DNA from: Deltaproteobacteria bacterium
Lineage (GTDB): Bacteria > Desulfobacterota > Deferrimicrobia > Deferrimicrobiales > Deferrimicrobiaceae
Assembly: GCA_021815305.1 (NCBI GenBank)
Contig: JAKAHC010000001.1
Span: 496,001-560,000, forward strand
Reading direction: 5' to 3'
DNA length: 64,000 nucleotides
A model generated the notes under the pieces. The model was given only the letters and a program-made list of their open reading frames with translations. It had not been told where the DNA came from and made no database searches. Positions 59,222 to 63,446 of this stretch are shown here, piece after piece (the first letter of the stretch is position 1; the number at the start of each line of letters is the position of its first letter). The position numbers and the translations under genes are program-made.

Positions 59222-62200
59222 GTTTCAATCCACGAGCCCGCGCGGGGCGCGACAATTCAAGGCGCATCGGGCAGACCTGATGGACGCGTTTCAATCCACG
59301 CGCCCGCGCGGGGCGGGACTTTTGTTAGCTATCCTCTTGATATTAAAGGCAAATAGTTTCAATCCACGCGCCCGCGCGGGGCGCGACCCCACCTCGGCGG
59401 ACAATTTCGATGGCGTGATCCAGTTTCAATCCACGCGCCCGCGCGGGGCGCGACAGCTCGCCACGATCAAAGACATAACCGCCACAGAGTTTCAATCCAC
59501 GCGCCCGCGCGGGGCGCGACCTCCGCGATCGGCGGGATGATCTCGCAGCAGGAGATGTTTCAATCCACGCGCCCGCGCGGGGCGCGACACACCGAGGTAG
59601 AGCGCCGCATGGCCGAGTGGGTCGTTTCAATCCACGCGCCCGCGCGGGGCGCGACAAACAAGGAGTGTTGATTAAAACCGGGTACAACCTGTTTCAATCC
59701 ACGCGCCCGCGCGGGGCGCGACCGCGTTAACCACCTTGCGAACGTGCTCTGGTTCCAGGTTTCAATCCACGCGCCCGCGCGGGGCGCGACGCGTGACGAA
59801 GGGGAGCGAGGCTTTCAAGGCGATGTTTCAATCCACGCGCCCGCGCGGGGCGCGACGCGGTCGTCGCGCTGATCGTGGTCGTCCTGATCAAGTTTCAATC
59901 CACGCGCCCGCGCGGGGCGCGACCTCGATTTGCCGCTGGGCATCGCGCTCACCTCCGATGTTTCAATCCACGCGCCCGCGCGGGGCGCGACACACCTTTT
60001 CCCATGTCCGCTTCGTGCGGGTGATGTTTCAATCCACGCGCCCGCGCGGGGCGCGACCGATCGCCAGGTTGGCCACCTTCAACCCGGCGGTGTTTCAATC
60101 CACGCGCCCGCGCGGGGCGCGACGGCGTACTTGTACAAAGACGGAACGATATACTGCGTTTCAATCCACGCGCCCGCGCGGGGCGCGACGATCGGAAACG
60201 CGATGGCGTGGTTTGCCCTTGAGGTTTCAATCCACGCGCCCGCGCGGGGCGCGACATCAATACAATAGCCAATAAATCCTTAAAAATAGAGTTTCAATCC
60301 ACGCGCCCGCGCGGGGCGCGACCATAAGGCATTGATATACGGCATACTTTTTGACAAAGTTTCAATCCACGCGCCCGCGCGGGGCGCGACTCGGGGCCAC
60401 CATTGACCTGGAGTCCGCCATGGGGTTTCAATCCACGCGCCCGCGCGGGGCGCGACCCCGTTGCAGCCGACGCCGGGCGCGGGGTATCCGTCGTTTCAAT
60501 CCACGCGCCCGCGCGGGGCGCGACGTGTTCAGGCTTCAAGGCGTTTCTTCAGGACGGTGTTTCAATCCACGCGCCCGCGCGGGGCGCGACATCGACGTCG
60601 TGACCCACGAGATCCTCGACGTGGAGTTTCAATCCACGCGCCCGCGCGGGGCGCGACCGGCGCAGTGCTGCGGCGTCCTGCATGGTCCCCTTGTTTCAAT
60701 CCACGCGCCCGCGCGGGGCGCGACAGCCGGGCGCCCTTGTACCACTTCAAGGCCTGCGGGTTTCAATCCACGCGCCCGCGCGGGGCGCGACGTGATCTCC
60801 TCAACCTTGGCAGCCAGTTCGTCGGAGTTTCAATCCACGCGCCCGCGCGGGGCGCGACGCCCGCATCGGGCGTGAAGTTGGATCAATACGGGTTTCAATC
60901 CACGCGCCCGCGCGGGGCGCGACGCGAAGACGATCCTTGACGGGGACCAGTACACCTCGTTTCAATCCACGCGCCCGCGCGGGGCGCGACCAGCAAGCCG
61001 ATCACCGTGGACTATTACCTGCAGCTGTTTCAATCCACGCGCCCGCGCGGGGCGCGACACCGGAGCTTCGCCTTGCTGCGTTCCGCCTTCCGGTTTCAAT
61101 CCACGCGCCCGCGCGGGGCGCGACGCCCGGAAAGGAGCCCGTTGATCCACGCCTCGAGGTTTCAATCCACGCGCCCGCGCGGGGCGCGACATCCTCGCTA
61201 CTCGGGGGACGCTTCACAACGGGGGTTTCAATCCACGCGCCCGCGCGGGGCGCGACCTGCGCGGTCCGGGAGTATTTCCGCCTGAAGGTGGTTTCAATCC
61301 ACGCGCCCGCGCGGGGCGCGACCCCCATGGAGATCGCCCGCATCCTCGAGTCGTTCGGTTTCAATCCACGCGCCCGCGCGGGGCGCGACCTCCGCCTGAA
61401 CCCCTTCCCCGCCCACTGGCCGGGGTTTCAATCCACGCGCCCGCGCGGGGCGCGACCCCGTCAATCTTGTCTATACTCTGAGCGATATAGTTTCAATCCA
61501 CGCGCCCGCGCGGGGCGCGACTTGCGCCCGGGCAGCGGTTCTACGAGGACGTGATCGTTTCAATCCACGCGCCCGCGCGGGGCGCGACCCGGGGCGAAGG
61601 TCTCCTTCCATTCCCGCCCCACGTTTCAATCCACGCGCCCGCGCGGGGCGCGACCGAGAAAGCCAAGGAAGCCCCCCCGAAGCCGAAGTTTCAATCCACG
61701 CGCCCGCGCGGGGCGCGACTTTTTCGCATTGGTTCTTTCTCCTTTCGTTCGTGTTTCAATCCACGCGCCCGCGCGGGGCGCGACGTCGGTTCAATCCCGA
61801 CCGCCGGCTCCATAATGAGTTTCAATCCACGCGCCCGCGCGGGGCGCGACGGAAGTAGGGTGGCCAGTCAGATCGAGCGGATCGAGGTTTCAATCCACGC
61901 GCCCGCGCGGGGCGCGACTGCCAAAGAGCGGAAGTACGGAATACAACGGCATCGTTTCAATCCACGCGCCCGCGCGGGGCGCGACCTAAGGCATTGATAT
62001 ACGGCATACTTTTCGACAAAGTTTCAATCCACGCGCCCGCGCGGGGCGCGACGTCGGATCACGGGGAGATCCTCAAGGTCCTGGGGTTTCAATCCACGCG
62101 CCCGCGCGGGGCGCGACGGATGCACATCGACATTAAGATGGCCCGGTAGAGTTTCAATCCACGCGCCCGCGCGGGGCGCGACGGGAGTACCACTCCGCAC

Positions 62201-63446
62201 CGCCCCGGCAGATGGAGAGTTTCAATCCACGCGCCCGCGCGGGGCGCGACGACGTATGCGGACATCGTGAGGCGTTCCTTATCCGCGTTTCAATCCACGC
62301 GCCCGCGCGGGGCGCGACGCGTGATATGTGGTCATTGTGCCCTCCTTCCGTAGTTTCAATCCACGCGCCCGCGCGGGGCGCGACCCATCAGGTCCGCTCT
62401 ATGTGTCTTAAACTCTTCGTTTCAATCCACGCGCCCGCGCGGGGCGCGACATGGGGATTGCTGTATTTTGGGCCAAACAGACCGTTTCAATCCACGCGCC
62501 CGCGCGGGGCGCGACATACCCATGTGCAATACTACCTGATGGCGTTCTGTTTCAATCCACGCGCCCGCGCGGGGCGCGACCTAATACGGCACATTCGATC
62601 AGTCAGACAAAAAAGAGTTTCAATCCACGCGCCCGCGCGGGGCGCGACCCGCGGTCCTCGCTAAGTATGGAATTAAACAAGAAGTTTCAATCCACGCGCC
62701 CGCGCGGGGCGCGACCCATCACCCCCGAAAAAGTCGCTAAAGCATCGCTGTTTCAATCCACGCGCCCGCGCGGGGCGCGACCGGGCAGTACTACACGCGC
62801 TCAACGCGGAGGACATCGTTTCAATCCACGCGCCCGCGCGGGGCGCGACAGGATTTATTGGCTATTGTATTGATTTAAAAGGCGTTTCAATCCACGCGCC
62901 CGCGCGGGGCGCGACACAAGATGCGCAAGATTATTGGCAAGAAACTTGGCGTTTCAATCCACGCGCCCGCGCGGGGCGCGACGCCACCAAGTTAGAATGG
63001 GATGCCATAGTAGCAGTTTCAATCCACGCGCCCGCGCGGGGCGCGACCGAGAAAAGATCGGCATCACGGAAGAACAGAAAAAGTTTCAATCCACGCGCCC
63101 GCGCGGGGCGCGACCGGTTCTACGGTGGGCAGCTTCTCTTCATCCAGTCGTTTCAATCCACGCGCCCGCGCGGGGCGCGACATCTGACGGATCGCAAGGG
63201 CAACGTCGTGATGCGGTTTCAATCCACGCGCCCGCGCGGGGCGCGACAAGGATTTTTACGCGATTGTCACGGGACCGAACATGTTTCAATCCACGCGCCC
63301 GCGCGGGGCGCGACACGGATCCCCACTACGTTTCCAGCCTGGTCAGGAGTTTCAATCCACGCGCCCGCGCGGGGCGCGACGTCGACCCGATCTATACTTT
63401 GCGCGATGTATGTAGTTTCAATCCACGCGCCCGCGCGGGGCGCGAC
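59222..63446 (-). CRISPR. Type I-C CRISPR array, 64 repeats and 63 spacers
   Basis: I counted 64 copies of a 32-base repeat that begins GTTTCAATCCACGCGCC and ends GGGGCGCGAC on the plus strand, separated by spacers of 33-36 bases. Read on the minus strand the repeat has a 7-base stem (CGCGCCC/GGGCGCG) with loop CGCGC. It is followed by TGGATTGAAAC, the 11-base crRNA 5' handle typical of type I-C. The repeats at 59222 and 59288 each carry one substitution and the copy before them is decayed, so the distal end is at low coordinates. The leader and cas2 lie at the other end. Transcription is therefore inferred to run right to left. Confidence 0.97.

Follow-up and report, generated by a model that had tools for sequence, protein, structure and literature searches.

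A type I-C CRISPR array occupies positions 59222 to 63446 on the minus strand, at the end of the 64,000-nucleotide window (the whole stretch of DNA analysed here), and comprises 64 regular repeats of 32 nt and 63 unique spacers of 33 to 36 nt, the arrangement expected of this type. The minus strand is the crRNA sense, and the repeat ends in GATTGAAAC. Two of the 64 repeats differ from the rest, by one substitution each; these are the two oldest (59222-59319), fitting the expectation for a trailer end. The gap between the array and cas2 (63447 to 63622) is taken from its position to be the leader region. It is followed by cas2 (Cas2c; 63623 to 63913, minus strand) and by cas1, which starts at the window edge, and beyond that edge cas4, cas7, cas8c, cas5 and cas3 continue on the same strand. 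The best PADLOC models for all seven proteins are Cas2c, Cas1c, Cas4c, Cas7c, Cas8c, Cas5c and Cas3c, which places the system in type I-C. CRISPR machinery and adaptation are of this ordinary, known kind, and the interesting point seems to be the apparent narrowness of the array's targets. Spacers are numbered here from 1 (newest) to 63 (oldest); mean G+C is somewhat lower in the newer half (0.53 in spacers 1-31 vs 0.58 in spacers 32-63).

Likeness of spacers 1 and 30

Spacer 1 (63381 to 63414, minus strand), the newest by position because it is the spacer nearest to cas2, and spacer 30 (61457 to 61489, minus strand) encode similar 11-residue peptides in the crRNA sense. Spacer 30 reads TAT ATC GCT CAG AGT ATA GAC AAG ATT GAC GGG (YIAQSIDKIDG), and spacer 1, read from its second base, ACA TAC ATC GCG CAA AGT ATA GAT CGG GTC GAC. 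The ten codons they share comprise four identical ones, four with a synonymous third-base change and two with a conservative replacement (Lys/Arg, Ile/Val), so that 22 of 30 aligned bases are equal, with 8 mismatches. The two starts lie 4 nt apart, indicating overlapping acquisition sites rather than one and the same site. Re-derivation returned the coordinates, orientation, translations and codon count (four third-base-only and two conservative changes in ten) of the first-pass annotation, whose further statement that this lineage is recent can be accepted only insofar as the array's last acquisition is its newest.

The first-pass annotation had also held that chance was unlikely to give this pattern, and the statistics bear this out. 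When all 1953 spacer pairs were scored as DNA, ungapped and on both strands, the pair 1/30 scored 10.0, and any pair as high occurred in 29 of 2000 arrays made by dinucleotide-preserving shuffles of all 63 spacers (3 in an earlier run of 60 shuffles). At the protein level (BLOSUM62, all six frames) the pair scored 45, a value attained in 2 of 340 shuffled arrays and, in an earlier set of 24, in none. The array-wide chance of this pair alone is thus about 0.006-0.015. Five of its eight differences fall in one codon phase, the third bases of the crRNA-sense frame, a bias that is weak taken alone (chance 0.17); when the three diverged pairs of the array are pooled, a single codon phase accounts for 15 of 23 differences (P 0.008, phase freely chosen). 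Shared ancestry of the targets of spacers 1 and 30 is well supported statistically.

Further related pairs and control arrays

Five spacer pairs score at least 10 (22/47, 9/48, 16/63, 9/62 and 1/30), three of them diverged, at 73-77% identity; all of the spacers concerned are on the minus strand. Spacer 16 (62385 to 62418), which encodes an 11-residue peptide, is partnered with the oldest spacer, 63 (59254 to 59287), which matches it in 23 of 30 nt on the opposite strand and gives a ten-residue peptide on its reverse strand. Spacers 9 (62850 to 62883) and 48 (60256 to 60290) have overlapping targets, with 25 of 25 bases shared on opposite strands, indicating two samplings of a single spot, in one element or in two very close ones. 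Spacer 62 (59320 to 59355) is a diverged homologue of this target (23 of 31 nt with spacer 9); no peptide is claimed for 9/62 because it can be read in several frames, some of which a stop interrupts in one target. Spacers 22 (61986 to 62020; KALIYGILFDK on the reverse strand) and 47 (60323 to 60358; HKALIYGILFDK on the reverse strand) represent one site, with 33 of 35 nt equal. One of their two differences lies at position 7, within the seed, and one is a synonymous Phe change in the KALIYGILFDK frame on the other strand and Glu/Lys in the crRNA-sense frame. Spacers 47 and 48 are adjacent and both AT-rich, and perhaps stem from one infection.

A separate observation concerns spacer 25 (61785-61818), which is identical over 28 bases to the 3' end of a tRNA-Thr(CGT) gene in the host genome (30 of 34 overall), the match stopping one base beyond the tRNA. 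The target resembles an attachment site, used by an element integrating into this tRNA gene, and the four mismatches, at crRNA positions 1, 2, 3 and 5, should spare the host.

These pairs bear on the possibility that spacers 1 and 30 resemble each other by coincidence among 1953 pairs, which we regard as highly improbable. Shuffling does yield as good a pair at the rates given above, and among 63 x 599 comparisons of these spacers with those of six other arrays one unrelated pair scored at least 8, reaching 10.5. Against this, not one of the 2000 shuffled arrays held even two pairs at or above score 10, where the real array has three diverged ones, and the differences between spacers 1 and 30 follow an in-frame, conservative pattern.

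Three I-C arrays of the phylum, from genomes G040, G083 and G051 (45, 218 and 316 spacers in the three arrays, 74,413 pairs), served as controls; the array of G094, with 35 repeats, was left out. Their 579 spacers yielded 27 pairs scoring at least 10, none of them diverged. In 26 of the 27 the starts are identical or one base off and identity is at least 94%, some being exact and four coming from a block duplication; the remaining pair overlaps exactly over 24 nt of C-rich sequence. Just under the threshold, the 316-spacer control has five pairs scoring 8.5-9.5, the highest of which (9.5) agrees at 23 of 32 bases, and the 218-spacer control has four at 7-8.5; we take these as chance because far more pairs were compared there. 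The 316-spacer array of the phylum relative G040 (L155, L156) carries a duplicated block of four spacers (291-294 = 296-299). Since same-site re-sampling is seen in all three controls, the process is common.

A rough birthday estimate puts the effective target at 24-30 kb for the present array vs 60, 160 and 234 kb for the controls, using a formula of our own (overlap chance = 61 / target size) that presupposes a motif every 64 bases on each strand. A bolder and less probable reading is that the array's targets all belong to a single narrow clade of small mobile elements that diverge fast and are not yet in databases, whose homologous sites it would re-sample far more often than other arrays do.

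Candidate target genes

Spacers often match conserved viral genes. The first-pass annotation had proposed searching for the gene behind the shared peptide, and in the scans run neither spacer found a convincing coding match in IMG/VR, GTDB contigs, phage records or plasmid records, nor a convincing protospacer that could form a homologous pair. A flexible 11-residue pattern had no match in IMG/VR or in GTDB contigs, and a scan of 297 relatives' genomes returned the array itself and nothing else. The 10-residue pattern matched once in GTDB contigs, as YIAQSIDQVD at the start of a squalene-hopene cyclase; allowing up to two mismatches in 395 genomes of the phylum, it found the array, that cyclase gene and one site with two mismatches. 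The cyclase was rejected as a candidate, about 0.5 chance matches being expected in 257 Gb (a hand estimate with equal base frequencies); its alignment with the host's own homologue begins at residue 19, past YIAQSIDQVD.

BLASTN of spacer 1 against phage records gave no match, and the other searches of spacers 1 and 30 against phages and plasmids gave best E-values of 0.3, 0.9 and 0.3. The phage match comprises three Vibrio phages with 22 of 24 bases, in frame (LLQSIVKIDG), in a protein matching phrog_687. It was rejected as chance because the stretch is not kept in the nine more distant relatives aligned, which were picked from 228 records plus loci of the phylum. Strong matches to phrog_687, a virion protein family, also occur in three genomes of the same phylum (L165, L166 and L167), perhaps as prophages; two of the three contain stop codons. 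Two of six plasmid matches were examined. One lies outside annotated genes; the other, to spacer 1 (25 of 28 bases), falls in a gene on the opposite strand and was judged chance at E 0.3.

Among the other pairs, IYGILFDK, from pair 22/47, gave two short-frame matches and its relaxed form none; FK[AT]HRADLM was absent from IMG/VR and, in the 395 genomes, occurred only in the array; and the exact 25-mer common to spacers 9 and 48 was absent from IMG/VR. Searches with spacers 47, 16, 48 and 63 against phages returned E-values of 0.4 or worse, including a ligase and a satellite phage for spacer 48 and, for spacer 63, a helicase whose reading strand is opposite to that of the ten-residue peptide. 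Ten X-padded peptides matched no family in PHROGs or in Pfam, queries so short giving little power.

We think it unlikely that conserved non-coding DNA, or a gene on the opposite strand, underlies the stretch shared by spacers 1 and 30 instead of a YIAQSID peptide. In IMG/VR, the YIAQSID scan with an AGY serine found nine loci, all in frames of 13-48 residues; their number fits the chance rate and they were set aside. The antisense frame of spacers 1 and 30 also yields peptides that resemble each other, and the plasmid gene matched by spacer 1 reads that frame (LDLIDTLRDV, compared with a ten-residue antisense peptide of the spacer), which counts against the crRNA-sense reading, makes the coding strand less than certain and slightly lowers our confidence in the favoured reading. 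The differences tend to fall at third bases when read in the crRNA sense (5 of 8), which points the other way, at a level that is not significant alone.

With a TCN serine, the same scan found 20 loci, ten of them encoding P22-like coat proteins and the others lying in frames of 33-131 residues. The coat proteins (Pfam PF11651) carry YIAQSIDS in frame, and their N-terminal arm, which carries YIAQSI, offers a named candidate for the target. Among the best 80 of 584 coat segments, 51 contain YIAQSI and all 80 have Gly at segment position 11, and the best DNA likeness of a coat gene is 22 of 33 bases to spacer 30 and 19 of 33 to spacer 1. The flanking residue disagrees, however: Pro precedes Tyr in all 80 close segments and in three of five distant phages, those keeping YIA (His or Asn stands there in the remaining two, in which YIA is absent), whereas spacer 1 has Thr at this position and a TTC motif would place Phe there for spacer 30. 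Retrieval partly favoured Pro, which was contained in one of the two patterns used, and 78 of the 80 segments carry the other pattern too. Nor did other spacers match P22-like phage genes: peptides from the complete set of 63 spacers (378 frames, of which 279 are stop-free) scored at most 43 against proteins of the coat loci, where 558 reversed and shuffled peptides, twice the observed number, reached up to 47. Finally, PF11651 occurs in only 3 of the 395 genomes of the phylum. The number of IMG/VR matches to the YIAQSID pattern is also about what chance would give (a rough estimate with an assumed size of IMG/VR). We consider the coat protein a very unlikely target.

The first-pass annotation had ascribed both spacers to one conserved gene of diverged viruses or plasmids. 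The shared ancestry in this claim stands on the statistics and on the four further pairs; as the searches returned no convincing coding match to either spacer, the one conserved gene is something that we infer.

Proposed history and comparison with known systems

We favour, with a probability of roughly 0.78, an origin of spacers 30 and 1 in two separate infections by related, diverged elements, the two sites nearly coinciding within a single protein-coding gene. The type I-C system would have taken spacer 30, and later spacer 1, from such mobile elements, presumably viruses rather than plasmids, the two acquisitions falling at near-identical places (starts 4 nt apart) in a gene probably read in the crRNA sense. 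Purifying selection on this gene would have confined codon drift mostly to third bases. One report (PMC8482600) gives TTC as the more canonical I-C motif, with CTN, CCN, CTT, TTN and TTT occurring as well. In the newer element the three bases preceding the homologous start of spacer 30, which can be read from spacer 1 itself, are ACA. Spacer 30 would probably have been unable to stop this element because of 8 mismatches in 30 bases, one of them at position 3, together with ACA in place of the usual TTC, and failure of the old spacer would have led to a new one being taken.

Primed adaptation, in which the imperfect match of an older spacer draws acquisition to the same region of a newer virus, is possible if rather doubtful. 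Several newer spacers do coincide with older targets or sit only a few bases away, and the position 7 difference between spacers 22 and 47, in the seed, also counts in favour of priming. The homologous site of spacer 30, with ACA at the motif position and 8 mismatches, speaks against it, and motif-limited choice alone would also produce same-site re-sampling.

If two infections by diverged relatives did supply spacers 30 and 1, a single array would preserve, at codon level, successive states of the same viral sites, from which selection on the genes of an unseen virus could be read in the host genome alone, and the way in which old spacers fail would be third-base drift together with motif loss. 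Should the array also be aimed at a narrow clade, its pairs with synonymous differences would record the evolution of that element and offer a way to locate conserved genes in viruses not yet seen. Among titles and abstract openings, no paper comparing the spacer pairs of one array by codon was found.

The YIAQSI[DN] segment of P22-like coat proteins (PF11651, phrog_283), with Gly at position 11 in many members, is like that of the spacers, but in the members seen to keep YIA a Pro precedes Tyr, unlike in spacer 1, and the other spacers lend no support. Compared with known type I-C systems, the locus has the same row of cas3, cas5, cas8c, cas7, cas4, cas1 and cas2, and its machinery is without visible difference from the type in general. 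As in the arrays of G040, G083 and G051, re-acquired spacers start at the same base as a related target or one base off. The present array differs from these three in the larger share of diverged related pairs, three of its pairs being only 73-77% identical, whereas 26 of the 27 control pairs are at least 94% identical.
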